The notes beneath the pieces are model-generated. The model worked only from the letters and a program-made list of their open reading frames with translations. It was not told the origin of the DNA and ran no database searches. 23,529 bases of DNA from the NCBI GenBank assembly GCA_022566355.1, contig JADFJB010000071.1:1-23529 (forward strand), given 5' to 3'. The translations under genes were made by a program, and so were the position numbers. Positions 15,264 to 19,946 of this stretch are shown here, piece after piece (within the stretch, counting starts at the first letter, position 1; each line of letters begins with the position of its first letter). The DNA comes from a candidate division KSB1 bacterium. Its GTDB lineage: Bacteria > Zhuqueibacterota > JdFR-76 > DREG01.

Positions 15264-15812
15264 ATGAATATTACAGAGTTATCCAAACTTGTAGAAGACG
15301 CTAAATCTGGCAATAGAAAAGCGCTTGAGGCAGTTTGTCGAATTCTGGAAAGCGAAATAAAAATCATTCTTCGTCAAAAGATCTCGGACCTTGAACTTGT
15401 CAATGATTTGTCTCAGGAAACATATTTGCGTTTAATTAAGGGCATTCAAGATATTAAAGAACCTGTTAAAATCAGGAATTTTGTTGCCAAGATGACTTTA
15501 TATACCTTGAATGATTACTTTCGCAATCATGCTAAATGGAAAAAGATCCTAATTCGAGAGGATGTTCATTTGTCTGATTCAAGGATATTCTACAAGAAAG
15601 AGGAAGTTGATGATAGCGAGCTGTTCAATAAACTTGCTGTTGAGGAAGCCATTAATAAGATTCCTGAACAGAAAGACAAGCGTTTATTCGAACTGAAATT
15701 ACAAGGGAAAAACTACGAGGACATTTCCAGTGAATTGTCCATTTCAATAGGCTCAGCAAAGATGAGGTTCAAAAGAACCCTTGAATTTTTGAAAGCTAAG
15801 CTAAGCGGATGA
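15264..15812 (+). CDS. ECF-type sigma-70 factor
   Basis: This is an RNA polymerase sigma factor of the extracytoplasmic-function type, 182 residues from the ATG at 15264 (an in-frame TTG at 15237 is a weaker choice). Region 2 is visible as DLSQETYLRLIKGI and IRNFVAKMTLYTLNDYFRNHAKW. After an acidic linker, region 4 shows INKIPEQKDKRLFELKLQGKNYEDISSELSISIGSAKMRFKRTLEFLKAKL with its helix-turn-helix. The gene starts a plus-strand series: 47 bp after its stop comes a single-pass membrane protein in the usual anti-sigma position, and then an exported TPR-CHAT protein. The arrangement suggests that the sigma factor is held by the membrane protein and released by an envelope signal. No close ribosome-binding site is evident, so expression may be low. 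Confidence 0.9.
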   Translation: MNITELSKLVEDAKSGNRKALEAVCRILESEIKIILRQKISDLELVNDLSQETYLRLIKGIQDIKEPVKIRNFVAKMTLYTLNDYFRNHAKWKKILIREDVHLSDSRIFYKKEEVDDSELFNKLAVEEAINKIPEQKDKRLFELKLQGKNYEDISSELSISIGSAKMRFKRTLEFLKAKLSG

Positions 15813-15859
15813 ATTTATCTCGATCAACAATTCCATTTACCCGATTTTATGAGAAATAA

Positions 15860-16741
15860 ATGAGCGATAAAAAGCCAACTAATGACTTACTCGCTCGATA
15901 TGCAATCTATCTTGCTGCTAAAGAAATGGATGTAAGTATTGAGGATAGCCGTATTTCCGTAGACGAAATCAGAAATGTAGAACACCAGATTTCAACTAAT
16001 CCTGAATTATCCGAATATATAAGTTTCTTGCAACAAAACTATATAAACCTTTATCAGAATTTGGATGAGTCTCAGGTAGGCCATATCACTATCAAACCTA
16101 TCAAAAAAAAATACATTACTCTAATTTCGCATCGGTTTAAATCACCGATAATGCGATATGCTTCAGCAGCTATTGTAATGCTGTTTCTTACAATTATTTC
16201 GTTGCCTTTAATAAGCAAGATGGTCACACCAGGCACTTATCCCATCGTTCAGGAAAGTCTTGACATCGTGCTTCCAGTTTTACGAGGTGAAAGTGGTTTT
16301 CCCTTGGAGTCTGGTAAAGATTTGTTTAATAAGGGACTGTATTTCGAAGCAATCAACTCATTTAGTAATGAATTTCAAAAAATTAAAAAAGATAATGAAA
16401 ATGAAACAGTCATTTTTGCTTATTACTTGGGTCTAACTTATCTGAAACAAGCTCAACAATCAACGTTTAGCCTCTTCACAAGATATCATTCGGCTTATCT
16501 GGATAGTTCATTCAGATATCTCGAGCTTGCGCGTCTAACGGTTACCAACCGTGTTATACTGCAGCGAGATATTTTCTGGCGACTAGGAATTGTAGAAACC
16601 CTCCGGTATTCAATAAATAATATGAATGAGAATTACACGAACGCTGAAAGGTTTCTAGTATTTCTCGTTGAAAATGATGGTAGAAATATAGAAGGAGCCA
16701 TAAAGTTACTAAAAAAGTTGAGAGAACTAAAGAATAAGTAA
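15860..16741 (+). CDS. Probable transmembrane anti-sigma factor with periplasmic TPR-like region
   Basis: This protein has 293 residues. The N-terminal part (about 1-98) is cytoplasmic, helical and charged (DEIRNVEHQISTNPELSEYISFL). One transmembrane helix lies at about 101-119 (ASAAIVMLFLTIISLPLIS), and the C-terminal part (about 150-290) contains TPR-like helices: DLFNKGLYFEAINSFSNEF and VIFAYYLGLTYLKQAQQ. There is no zinc-binding HxxxCxxC, so it is not a classical ZAS anti-sigma factor; the anti-sigma role rests on topology and on its place 47 bp after the ECF sigma gene. The periplasmic helices could meet the TPR repeats of the exported CHAT protein encoded next, which is inference. The spacer to that gene is 154 bp. 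Confidence 0.65.
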   Translation: MSDKKPTNDLLARYAIYLAAKEMDVSIEDSRISVDEIRNVEHQISTNPELSEYISFLQQNYINLYQNLDESQVGHITIKPIKKKYITLISHRFKSPIMRYASAAIVMLFLTIISLPLISKMVTPGTYPIVQESLDIVLPVLRGESGFPLESGKDLFNKGLYFEAINSFSNEFQKIKKDNENETVIFAYYLGLTYLKQAQQSTFSLFTRYHSAYLDSSFRYLELARLTVTNRVILQRDIFWRLGIVETLRYSINNMNENYTNAERFLVFLVENDGRNIEGAIKLLKKLRELKNK

Positions 16742-16797
16742 ACGATTCTCAGGAGGAAAAACTAGGGAATTGCTGTGATGGATGATAATGGGATAAT

Positions 16798-16859
16798 TTG
16801 TAACTTACTCATTACTATAATCAATCCAATAAGTGATGAGCTACAAAGCTAAATTTTTT
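16798..16859 (+). terminator. Hairpin and T-run between the anti-sigma-like and TPR-CHAT genes
   Basis: CTCATTACT (16808-16816) pairs with AGTGATGAG (16832-16840), nine pairs with one G-U. The outer arms TTGTA and TACAA extend it with a bulge. An A-rich gap and a run of six or seven T follow at about 16853-16859. It may be a weak or partial terminator setting the ratio of the CHAT gene to the sigma pair, but the stem is AT-rich and the T-run lies a few bases too far away. Confidence 0.3.
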
Positions 16860-16895
16860 AACAGGTGAAAAACTATAACTGTAAGGGAGACAATT

Positions 16896-19800
16896 ATGAA
16901 GCACAAAATACTAATCACTGCAGTTTTTGTTATGTTTTTTTCTGTAGAATTACTATTTGCGCAAAACCCAGTTCAAGATAAACTCAAGAACACAACCTAT
17001 ACAATACAGGATACTACCCAGGCTGTTGCTTATTTCAACAAAGCGATAGAACTAAGCAATGCAGCCCAATATGACAGTTCCAATGCTTTATTTGAAAAAG
17101 CCAGGGTGATTTACAAGGAGATGAGTGACCAGTTTGATATAAATACAATTTGGATAAAAAATCTACAGTGCTTTAATCGTATAGGGAATAATTTTCGAAA
17201 ACAAGGAAAGTATCGACTTGCCCTGAATAATTTAAAGCAAGGGTTAGAAGGATTGGAAAAATTTGAAGGGGATCATAATGTTATTGCAATGAGTTTTAAT
17301 ATTATTGGAGCAGTTCACCTACAAAATGGCAATTATAATTGGGCAATAGAAAATCTTCAAAAGTCATTATCGATCAGGCTTCGATTATTCGGTGAAGAGC
17401 ATTCTCAGGTTGCCGGTAGCTACCATAATATAGGAGCTCTTTATCGTGATAAAGGTGATTATGATCGTGCGCTTGAATACAACGAAAAGTCCTTGTTGAT
17501 AAACCTTCAATTACGGGGTGAGGAAGATCGTTGGGTTGCTAACAACTATAATAACATTGGGAGCGTTTATAGGCATAAGGGTGATTTTGATCGGGCGTTG
17601 GAATACTATACAAAAGCGCTATCGATCAGACTTCGATTATTGGATGAGGAGCATGATGAGGTTGCTAACAGCTATAATAGCATTGGAACAGCTTACCAAA
17701 GTAAAGGGAATTATGATAAAGCCTTAGAATATTTCAAAAAAAACTTATCAATTGTTCTTCGATTATACGGTAATGAACATCCCTTAGTTGCCAGTGGCTA
17801 CAGTAATATCGGAACTATTTACTATAATAAAGGCGAATATGATCGAGCGCTGGAATACCACAATAAATTTTTATTAATAAATCGTCTTATACTGGGTGAA
17901 GAACACCCTGATGTTGGCACAGCCTATATTAACATAGGTGAAGATTATCGATTGAAAGGCATTTTCGATCAAGCGTTAAAATATTTCCGAAAAGCTTTGG
18001 CAGTATATCTTAAAGCTCTAGGCGCCCACCATCCAAAAGTTGCAAACGATTATTTAGGACTGGCCGAGGTTTATTTTCAGAAGGATGATTTTAGCAACGC
18101 ATTAAGGTATTGCCAAAAGTCACTCATTTCACTGGCCCCCGGATTTACTGATCAGTCCATATACCGCAATCCACCTTTAGAAAACCTAAGTTCTGAAATC
18201 GGTTTACTCAACGCATTAAAATTAAAAGCAGAAATTTTAACTCGTATGTCTGGCAAGACCGGGAAAAAAGATCTGGAGACGGCTTTCTCAACCTACCAGC
18301 TAGCGGCAGATCTTATCGATAAGATACGAACGGGCTACAAGGCCGAAGGCTCTAAGTTGCTATTAGGCGAAAACGTTGTAGAAATCTATGACCAAGCCAT
18401 TGGCAGCGCCATAAAACTGAACCAAATTACAGGAAAAAAGTCTTATAAAGAAAGCGCTTTCTTTTTCGCTGAAAAAGGTAAAGCCAGTGTGTTGAGCCAT
18501 GCTCTGCAGGAAACTCAGGCCAAATCCTTCGCCGGTATACCGAACACCCTATTGGAAAAAGAAAAACAACTAAAAATCGACCTGGCTTTCTACGACACAC
18601 AAATTGAGAAAGAGCGCCAGAAAAAAGAAGGCCAGGATGAAGCCAAAATCCAGGATTTCGAAGGTAGGTATTTTTCATTAAAGACAGAGTACGAATCGTT
18701 AATTGAAGAATTGGAGACGACCTACCCGAAATATTATGAATTGAAATACCAGACCCAATCCGTGTCGATACCTGAACTGCAAGAAGTATTGGATTCCCAA
18801 ACAACTGTAGTGGAATATTTCACAGGCGAAAAATCCATCACTATTTTTACCGTTGCTAAACATCACTTTGAAGTCACAACGGTTGCAAAGGACAGCCTAT
18901 TTGAAACGTTGATTAAGCAGTTACGCACTGGCATAACAAAACACGATTATGAGCTTTATGCGAAGAGTGCATACAGGTTGTACCAGTTTCTCATCCAGCC
19001 TGTAGTAGGCCATCTTACAACCAGGAGCTTGATAATCATTCCAGATCATGTTGTTGCCAATGTCCCGTTTGAGGCCTTGCTTACTGAGGATGGAGCCGAT
19101 GTAAAGAGCATAGATTATACCAGCCTGCCTTATTTATTGAGAGAATACCAGGTAAGTTATGCCTATTCAGCCAATCTATTGTTGGATCTGCTGAATCGAA
19201 GCCAGCCTGATCCTCCCAGGGATTACCTGGCATTTGCCCCGGTTTTTCCGAACGGAATCAGTAGCGGTTCACGAGCAGCAGATTTGCTACAAGCAAATCA
19301 TGATCTTGATTCAACCCGAACTGCTCGTACCCATCTACCTGCTTCTCGGGATGAAGTTCTGGGTATACAACAGTTGTTTCGCCAGAGCTATGGTATCATA
19401 GACCGGCTGTATGACTGGTTGTTTGGTGATAAGTCCCGAGTCTATCTTGAAAATCAGGCAAGCGAAGAGAATCTGAAAAACACTGATTTGAAGGAATATC
19501 GCTATGTTCATTTTGCCACCCATGGTTTTGCCAATGAAACGACCCCCGAGCTATCCGGGCTGCTGTTGGCACAGGACACCACCTCAACTGAGGATGATGT
19601 GCTTTTTCTAGGAGAAGTGTATAACCTGGAATTGAATGCAGACCTGGTGACCTTAAGCGCCTGCGAGAGCGGGATCGGCAAGACTATCAAAGGAGAAGGA
19701 TTAATGAGTCTCAGTCGTGGCTTTTTATATGCCGGAGCGAAGAATCTGTTGGTTTCACTGTGGAAGGCAGATGACAGGGCTACTTGTGACTTAATGCTGG

Positions 19801-19946
19801 CATTTTATGAGGAGATGCTGAAAGGCAAACCAAAGGCGCAAGCGCTCAGGGAAGCAAAACTCCGTTTGATTGGAAATCAATCCCGCTCTGCTTGGGATTA
19901 CGCCGATCCATCAAGTTGGGCTCCGTTTATCCTGGTTGGTAAATGA
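16896..19946 (+). CDS. Exported TPR-CHAT caspase-like protease
   Basis: This protein has 1016 residues. A signal peptide (KILITAVFVMFFSVELLFAQ) predicts export. TPR repeats of the 42-residue kinesin-light-chain type run from about residue 130 to 415, preceded by weaker ones. A helical linker follows, with a coiled-coil-like part around EKEKQLKIDLAFYDTQIEKERQKKEG. The C-terminal CHAT domain covers about 720-1016. The catalytic pair is intact: His876 in HFATHGFA and Cys923 in LSACESGIG. Further family motifs are GEGLMSLSRGFLYAGAKNLLVSLW and SSWAPFILVG at the end. CHAT proteins are caspase-related cysteine peptidases (separase/gingipain clan); this one most likely cleaves a partner when its TPR part senses a signal. 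GGGAGA lies seven bases before the ATG. It follows an ECF sigma and a probable anti-sigma gene on the same strand. Export separates it from Craspase TPR-CHAT, which is cytoplasmic. The stop is doubled (TGATGA). Confidence 0.92.
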   Translation: MKHKILITAVFVMFFSVELLFAQNPVQDKLKNTTYTIQDTTQAVAYFNKAIELSNAAQYDSSNALFEKARVIYKEMSDQFDINTIWIKNLQCFNRIGNNFRKQGKYRLALNNLKQGLEGLEKFEGDHNVIAMSFNIIGAVHLQNGNYNWAIENLQKSLSIRLRLFGEEHSQVAGSYHNIGALYRDKGDYDRALEYNEKSLLINLQLRGEEDRWVANNYNNIGSVYRHKGDFDRALEYYTKALSIRLRLLDEEHDEVANSYNSIGTAYQSKGNYDKALEYFKKNLSIVLRLYGNEHPLVASGYSNIGTIYYNKGEYDRALEYHNKFLLINRLILGEEHPDVGTAYINIGEDYRLKGIFDQALKYFRKALAVYLKALGAHHPKVANDYLGLAEVYFQKDDFSNALRYCQKSLISLAPGFTDQSIYRNPPLENLSSEIGLLNALKLKAEILTRMSGKTGKKDLETAFSTYQLAADLIDKIRTGYKAEGSKLLLGENVVEIYDQAIGSAIKLNQITGKKSYKESAFFFAEKGKASVLSHALQETQAKSFAGIPNTLLEKEKQLKIDLAFYDTQIEKERQKKEGQDEAKIQDFEGRYFSLKTEYESLIEELETTYPKYYELKYQTQSVSIPELQEVLDSQTTVVEYFTGEKSITIFTVAKHHFEVTTVAKDSLFETLIKQLRTGITKHDYELYAKSAYRLYQFLIQPVVGHLTTRSLIIIPDHVVANVPFEALLTEDGADVKSIDYTSLPYLLREYQVSYAYSANLLLDLLNRSQPDPPRDYLAFAPVFPNGISSGSRAADLLQANHDLDSTRTARTHLPASRDEVLGIQQLFRQSYGIIDRLYDWLFGDKSRVYLENQASEENLKNTDLKEYRYVHFATHGFANETTPELSGLLLAQDTTSTEDDVLFLGEVYNLELNADLVTLSACESGIGKTIKGEGLMSLSRGFLYAGAKNLLVSLWKADDRATCDLMLAFYEEMLKGKPKAQALREAKLRLIGNQSRSAWDYADPSSWAPFILVGK
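17283..18137 (+). repeat. 126-bp tandem coding repeats (42-residue TPR units)
   Basis: Six full units start at 17283, 17409, 17535, 17661, 17787 and 17913, exactly 126 bp apart, and a seventh partial one at 18039. Each encodes VAxxYxxIGxxYxxKGxYDxALEY followed by a helix and EEHP. The spacing is perfect with no insertions, and units 2 to 5 are most alike, which suggests recent expansion or gene conversion. Confidence 0.85.

Follow-up and report, generated by a model that had tools for sequence, protein, structure and literature searches.

Exported CHAT protease-like proteins are recurrent neighbours of extracytoplasmic function sigma factors and their membrane anti-sigma factors in the KSB1 phylum

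Introduction

What could an exported, caspase-like protein be doing beside a sigma factor gene? The question is raised by a window of 23,529 nucleotides (the whole stretch of DNA analysed here) from a bacterium of candidate division KSB1, contig JADFJB010000071.1. In it, genes for an extracytoplasmic function (ECF) sigma factor, a single-pass membrane anti-sigma factor and an exported protein with tetratricopeptide repeats (TPRs) and a CHAT domain follow one another on the plus strand. An earlier note, made from the letters alone, had drawn attention to this trio, and all three genes lie where it placed them (Table 1), separated by 47 bp (sigma to anti-sigma) and 154 bp (anti-sigma to CHAT). 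CHAT proteases are mostly known from Craspase, a type III-E clustered regularly interspaced short palindromic repeats (CRISPR) system, and from conflict systems. We know of no substrates for the many exported TPR-CHAT proteins.

Sigma factor genes adjoin CHAT genes in many genomes

The best CHAT matches of the KSB1 phylum were sampled blind to their context and both flanks were read; only a double-CHAT type of about 2,700 amino acids was excluded. A CHAT gene was counted as linked when an ECF sigma gene lay at most 4 kb from it. By this measure 39 of the 67 sampled CHAT genes are linked, where chance would give about 2.1 at the observed ECF gene density (28 for the window's own genome, 10-44 for others; Poisson P about 1e-35). 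Nearly all linked genes (37/39) adopt two of the four possible orientations: sigma upstream on the same strand, which gives the order sigma/anti-sigma/CHAT (24 loci), and a sigma/anti-sigma pair placed tail-to-tail downstream (13 loci). The remaining 2 loci belong to other classes, and one of them (G056) has a second sigma gene upstream in the same direction. Two of the genomes are nearly identical; when only one of these is counted, 37 of 62 CHAT genes are linked, in 24 of 29 genomes. The double-CHAT proteins, which are exported and come from the same phylum, served as a control, and none of their 18 genes has an ECF sigma within 4 kb. We conclude that the sigma/CHAT linkage in the KSB1 phylum is real, general and orientation-specific. 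The earlier note would have been refuted if the three genes were not neighbours elsewhere, and the survey shows that they are neighbours in many genomes.

The same arrangements are seen outside the phylum. Among loci on genome contigs that were chosen by similarity, 26 of 90 CHAT open reading frames have a sigma gene within 4 kb (16 tail-to-tail); a few of these loci are from KSB1, and the rest are from Bacteroidota, Calditrichota, Ignavibacteriota and Acidobacteriota.

The membrane protein descends from zinc-binding anti-sigma factors

The first product of the trio matches Pfam Sigma70_r4_2 (8.6e-06) and NCBIfam sigma70-ECF (1.1e-12, above its cut-off), and a 6-member profile built on it reaches solved ECF sigmas with values down to 3e-12. 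It has sigma70 regions 2 and 4 and no further domains, as expected of an ECF sigma factor, and was correctly named as a sigma factor in the earlier note.

The middle product, taken alone, has no match in Pfam or NCBIfam. The same genome encodes a distant paralogue directly upstream of another CHAT gene, and in an alignment with this paralogue and with relatives from the phylum the window protein corresponds to proteins that carry two zinc anti-sigma modules with H-x3-C-x2-C. The window copy and its nearest relatives (at loci L060 and L063) are missing the first of these modules, and the second is without its cysteines; a further relative (L071) is intermediate, with one degenerate zinc module. 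Across a 28-member alignment HxxxCxxC is present in 21 homologues, a zf-HC2 match in 19 (none in the window copy) and one transmembrane helix in all 28. Most homologues are placed after a sigma gene, and a profile of the family gives a weak match to the solved anti-sigma ChrR (0.0074). Measured against the zf-HC2 (ZAS) type, the window protein has the adjoining sigma gene, the homologous N-terminal domain and the single transmembrane helix, and it lacks, as do L060, L063 and others, the zinc ligands (HxxxCxxC). We conclude from these aligned relatives that it is an anti-sigma factor by descent that has kept its zf-HC2 ancestry and lost the zinc motif, so the label "anti-sigma-like" given to it earlier is backed by homology.

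The AlphaFold2 model of this protein (mean predicted local distance difference test score, pLDDT, 87.5) comprises three N-terminal helices, a membrane helix and a TPR domain, in agreement with the single-pass regulator with periplasmic TPR-like helices that the earlier note had described. The TPR domain superimposes on BamD (VIA-align Z 16.0, root-mean-square deviation (rmsd) 2.0, 127 residues aligned) and on other TPR domains with Z about 15. A fold search with the whole model was filled by such domains and barely probed the N-terminal one. Lysines and arginines number 3 before and 1 after the membrane helix, which places the N terminus inside.

The linker between the membrane helix and the TPR domain contains an arginine that recurs across the family. 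Of the 23 linkers in CHAT-linked members, 16 contain arginine followed by glycine or serine (R[GS]), a motif chosen after looking, versus 5.7 in shuffles. Arg142 of the window protein is thus a candidate cleavage site, which we offer as a lead only.

Some CHAT-linked anti-sigma factors have a different exterior. The periplasmic part of those at L008:2890-3744 and L079:5310-6185 (minus strand) looks by eye like immunoglobulin or fibronectin type III domains instead of TPRs, and the two have a TREST sequence in common just outside the membrane.

The third protein is an exported CHAT protease-like protein

The third product has a long TPR region (Pfam TPR_12, 4.7e-73) and a CHAT domain (4.7e-66). 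The earlier note had read His876 and Cys923 as an intact catalytic pair; both are invariant in 28 aligned sequences, and the histidine and cysteine are kept in all 55 sigma-linked CHATs as well as in all 86 unlinked ones. Export, also proposed in that note, is predicted from a signal-peptide-like N terminus and fits the hydrophobic, export-like N-terminal stretch of all 41 full-length sigma-linked CHATs. A C-terminal membrane anchor occurs in 20 of these 41; the window protein is without one.

An AlphaFold2 model of the protein (pLDDT 87) retrieved Csx29, the TPR-CHAT protease of Craspase, as top match in Foldseek (8eey_B, 3.1e-15), followed by separases and DdvA. VIA-align superimposes model and Csx29 with Z 31.1 (rmsd 4.6, 472 residues aligned). 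A CHAT sequence profile searched against the PDB did not reach Csx29, and the resemblance is seen by structure comparison only; the one credible PDB sequence that the profile reached was DdvA (2.2e-4), with the histidine and cysteine aligned. We describe the window protein as CHAT protease-like: it has the predicted CHAT fold with histidine and cysteine, and its peptidase activity is a prediction.

DdvA is the anti-sigma factor of DdvS in Myxococcus xanthus, and its signal is unknown (PMC4374960); its PDB entries (8rot, 8rw5) call it a transmembrane anti-sigma factor and a CHAT domain-containing protein. With the CHAT domain sitting in an anti-sigma factor there, the window protein could be a sensor or scaffold that does not cleave; it would bind a ligand as well as the anti-sigma factor's TPR domain and act by contact, as a separate version of a possible DdvA mode. 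TPRs, which are usual protein-binding modules, are present in both proteins and would suit such a role. The full conservation of histidine and cysteine in the linked CHATs, together with that of the surrounding motifs, argues for catalysis, and we consider a purely non-cleaving role quite improbable.

Partners have been exchanged while the linkage was kept

The three genes of the window do not have the same nearest relatives. The closest branches to the window protein in the CHAT tree are those of L057, L054 and L046/L105 (SH-like approximate likelihood ratio test 95-99; the CHAT domains of L046 and L105 are identical). None of these has a sigma gene upstream, and each faces a sigma gene and a TPR anti-sigma gene tail-to-tail. 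The window's sigma and anti-sigma factors are nearest to those of L063 and L060 (43% and 38% identity, respectively, for sigma), where a CHAT of a different branch follows the pair. The modules nearest to the window sigma (L063) and to the window CHAT (L057) occur together in one other genome. The window CHAT and the sigma/anti-sigma pair thus each belong to a branch whose members are usually combined with different partners, so partners were exchanged with the linkage kept. As co-diversification would give, sigma and CHAT distances are correlated over 44 systems (Mantel r 0.46; largest value in 1000 permutations 0.16), a correlation to which the species tree, not corrected for, contributes.

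The exchange also bears on whether the three genes of the window came together by chance, in which case a CHAT from a branch that faces other anti-sigma genes tail-to-tail would have landed behind the present pair. The relatives of the window CHAT without an upstream sigma gene would fit this, as would the 154 bp gap, but the same relatives do have a sigma gene and a TPR anti-sigma gene tail-to-tail, and the window-like pairs of L060 and L063 do have another CHAT behind them. Both halves of the trio are thus CHAT- or sigma-linked elsewhere, and we hold a chance meeting to be very improbable.

The module resembles known systems and is not a Craspase

Csx29 cleaves the sigma inhibitor Csx30 (PMC10028731). 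In Craspase (Csx29, Csx30 and CASP-sigma), as in the window, an ECF sigma factor has a sigma inhibitor and a TPR-CHAT protease as its neighbours. Craspase is cytoplasmic and commanded by RNA through Cas7-11, whereas here the protease is export-like, the inhibitor is in the membrane and a CRISPR part was not found: the window has no CRISPR-like repeat array, and the 98.5%-complete genome gave no match to a RAMP/Cas7-type protein, including a Cas7-11 candidate. The earlier note had likewise seen no CRISPR part. It had also held the resemblance to Craspase to be one of composition only, which stands for the membrane protein, without sequence match to Csx30, and not for the TPR-CHAT protein, whose fold matches Csx29.

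A cytoplasmic Csx29 bound to Cas7-11 was considered as an identity for the third protein and rejected; the fold agrees, but the N terminus is signal-like and no Cas7-11 candidate was found in the genome. If the locus derived from, or were related to, a type III-E Craspase locus with its CRISPR part lost, this would explain why Csx29 is the best structural match and why an ECF sigma factor and its inhibitor occur in both. We regard such an origin as extremely improbable, given the export-like N terminus, the lack of RAMP/Cas7 in the genome and of an array in the window, an inhibitor that is a membrane protein of zf-HC2 type unmatched to Csx30, and a linkage that is widespread and seen without CRISPR at the present locus. 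With no Cas7-11-type protein, array or Csx30 match, we do not class the module as a Craspase.

In DdvS/DdvA a transmembrane anti-sigma factor holds the ECF sigma factor, as is proposed here, and a CHAT domain is likewise involved. There, CHAT and anti-sigma factor form one chain; in the window, CHAT is encoded as an exported protein of its own, next to an anti-sigma factor that carries a TPR domain and no longer has the zinc motif. No anti-sigma/CHAT fusion was found among the open reading frames of the collected loci. For ECF54 sigmas, CHAT, carboxypeptidase and subtilase genes are conserved in the context, and control by proteolysis without an anti-sigma factor has been proposed (PMC8999054). 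The likeness to ECF54 lies in the CHAT gene context and the proposed proteolysis; ECF54 is proposed to be free of anti-sigma factors and the listed example is actinobacterial, whereas an anti-sigma factor is present here. DdvA and ECF54, which the earlier note had not named, are the nearer precedents and lower the novelty of the module. It differs from Craspase, DdvA and ECF54 in combining a separate exported CHAT protease-like protein with a TPR-bearing membrane anti-sigma factor, in two recurrent arrangements.

In the literature searched, a link between sigma factors and CHAT or comparable proteases turned up in three cases only: Craspase, CalpL and a remark on ECF54. An earlier mention in the main ECF classification is possible. 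In CalpL-CalpT-CalpS, release of the sigma factor from its inhibitor is controlled by a protease. That protease, CalpL of a type III CRISPR system (PMC11417357), differs from the window CHAT in being a cytoplasmic SAVED-Lon protease that responds to a cyclic oligoadenylate signal.

A putative membrane-spanning sigma switch

The recurrent side-by-side genes suggest an envelope-sensing switch. The earlier note had proposed such a circuit, made up of TPR-TPR contact, cleavage of the membrane regulator and release of the sigma factor, and our analysis supports it in part. To judge by homology to zf-HC2 anti-sigma factors, the membrane protein would use its N-terminal domain to bind the ECF sigma factor inside the cell and hold it inactive, and the exported TPR-CHAT protein would recognise the TPR domain of the anti-sigma factor outside the membrane. 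Upon an envelope signal, CHAT would cut the periplasmic part of the anti-sigma factor, most likely within the flexible linker next to the membrane. The genome encodes a site-2 protease, which would then free the cytoplasmic part so that the sigma factor could activate its regulon, comparable to the control of RseA by DegS and RseP. Like RseA (DegS-RseP) and RsiW, the module has a single-pass anti-sigma factor with a putative cytoplasmic sigma-binding part, a proposed periplasmic first cut and a site-2 protease in the genome. DegS is a PDZ serine protease, whereas the first protease here would be a caspase-like CHAT encoded beside the sigma factor. Cleavage of the anti-sigma factor would be the likeliest mechanism; we count DdvA, with CHAT in the anti-sigma factor, and Csx29, which cuts a sigma inhibitor, as precedents in its favour. 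The strong, orientation-specific link to ECF sigma/anti-sigma pairs makes the anti-sigma factor a definite candidate substrate for exported TPR-CHAT proteins.

Alternatively, CHAT may be an output, its gene being part of the regulon of the neighbouring sigma factor and its exported product cutting envelope proteins or acting like a toxin under stress. Adjacent genes are often part of ECF regulons, CHAT has its own promoter region in the tail-to-tail arrangement, and the dyad is also kept in CHATs without a nearby sigma gene. Orientations that are not confined to co-transcription and periplasmic TPRs on both partners fit this less well, and the precedents of DdvA and Csx29 tie CHAT to a sigma inhibitor. 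No promoter motif shared by sigma and CHAT genes, relative to mismatched pairs, was found in the tail-to-tail loci, a weak test as AT-rich matches dominate. We consider the output role unlikely.

Several observations weigh against the cleavage switch. In the window, 154 bp separate the anti-sigma and CHAT genes and a shared promoter was not found; a scan of the locus for promoters and terminators gave counts no higher than in shuffles. The dyad is as intact in unlinked CHATs as in linked ones and is no pointer to the anti-sigma factor as substrate. The linker arginine motif, picked post hoc, is also found in unlinked family members, and the species tree has its share in the sigma/CHAT correlation. 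For 28 of the 67 CHAT genes in the phylum sample the flanking 4 kb hold no sigma gene, although contig ends cut several of these loci, and some relatives of the anti-sigma factor adjoin a sigma gene with no CHAT nearby. That CHATs of the present kind cleave anti-sigma factors is itself something we infer. On balance, we give an even chance to a membrane-spanning ECF sigma switch with the caspase-like CHAT protease as its periplasmic part, cutting the anti-sigma factor on an envelope signal.

A broader proposal, possible and in our view doubtful, is that periplasmic caspase-like CHAT proteases are widespread in KSB1, Bacteroidota and neighbouring phyla as site-1 proteases dedicated to ECF anti-sigma factors, which they would cut near the outer side of the membrane, at a basic residue that is conserved. 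The Csx29-Csx30-sigma triad and DdvA would then be special cases of a general CHAT/anti-sigma/sigma circuit. The linkage hints at a possible origin of that triad. If cleavage is true, a caspase-like enzyme would join the short list of proteases that initiate anti-sigma cleavage.

Locus layout and further gene arrangements

Table 1. Features of the sigma/anti-sigma/CHAT locus, in positions of the window.
Feature	Position	Strand	Basis
ECF sigma factor, 182 amino acids	15264..15812	+	Pfam Sigma70_r4_2 and NCBIfam sigma70-ECF above cut-off
Single-pass membrane anti-sigma factor, 293 amino acids; anti-sigma domain degenerate and without zinc ligands, TPR domain periplasmic	15860..16741	+	alignments A2 and A4 with zf-HC2 anti-sigma homologues; AlphaFold2 model
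Cytoplasmic anti-sigma domain, residues 1-70, three helices	15860..16069	+	HQISTNPEL where homologues have HxxxCxxC; alignments, AlphaFold2 model
Transmembrane helix, residues 96-122	16145..16225	+	AlphaFold2 model, flanking charges
Arg142 of the membrane-to-TPR linker, possible cleavage site (a lead)	16283..16285	+	invariant in alignment A2
Periplasmic TPR domain, residues 145-293	16292..16738	+	VIA-align to TPR structures
Exported TPR-CHAT protease-like protein, 1016 amino acids, without C-terminal anchor	16896..19946	+	Pfam, AlphaFold2 model, Foldseek
Signal-peptide-like N terminus (MKHKILITAVFVMFFSVELLFA-Q)	16896..16961	+	read directly from translation
CHAT domain, residues 691-1016	18966..19943	+	Pfam CHAT
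Catalytic His876 (predicted)	19521..19523	+	invariant in alignment A5; kept in 55/55 sigma-linked CHATs
Catalytic Cys923 (predicted)	19662..19664	+	invariant in alignment A5; kept in 55/55 sigma-linked CHATs

Other arrangements of these genes were encountered among the collected loci. TPR anti-sigma genes of the same family lie by a sigma gene with CHAT absent nearby at L246, L251, L252, L253, L256, L259 and L261; some such loci continue into large genes, for example one of 922 amino acids in L252. At L070:5348-6592 and L072:5397-6692 (minus strand), a membrane protein with a HEFAH metalloprotease-like motif is inserted between the anti-sigma factor and CHAT. Five loci (L078, L081, L083, L084 and L085) encode a sigma factor, a small cysteine-containing protein, a membrane protein with a helical periplasmic part, mostly a small extra protein, and then CHAT.

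Exported proteins of about 2,750 amino acids with one or two CHAT matches (L269-L286) are encoded in many genomes of the phylum, and at none of 18 loci does an ECF sigma gene adjoin them. On contig C30 of the window's own genome, a sigma-less CHAT gene adjoins a gene for a 326-amino-acid protein (L007:3428-4408, minus strand) made of repeats of about 20 residues (LMADSRYAVAWSNLLADD).

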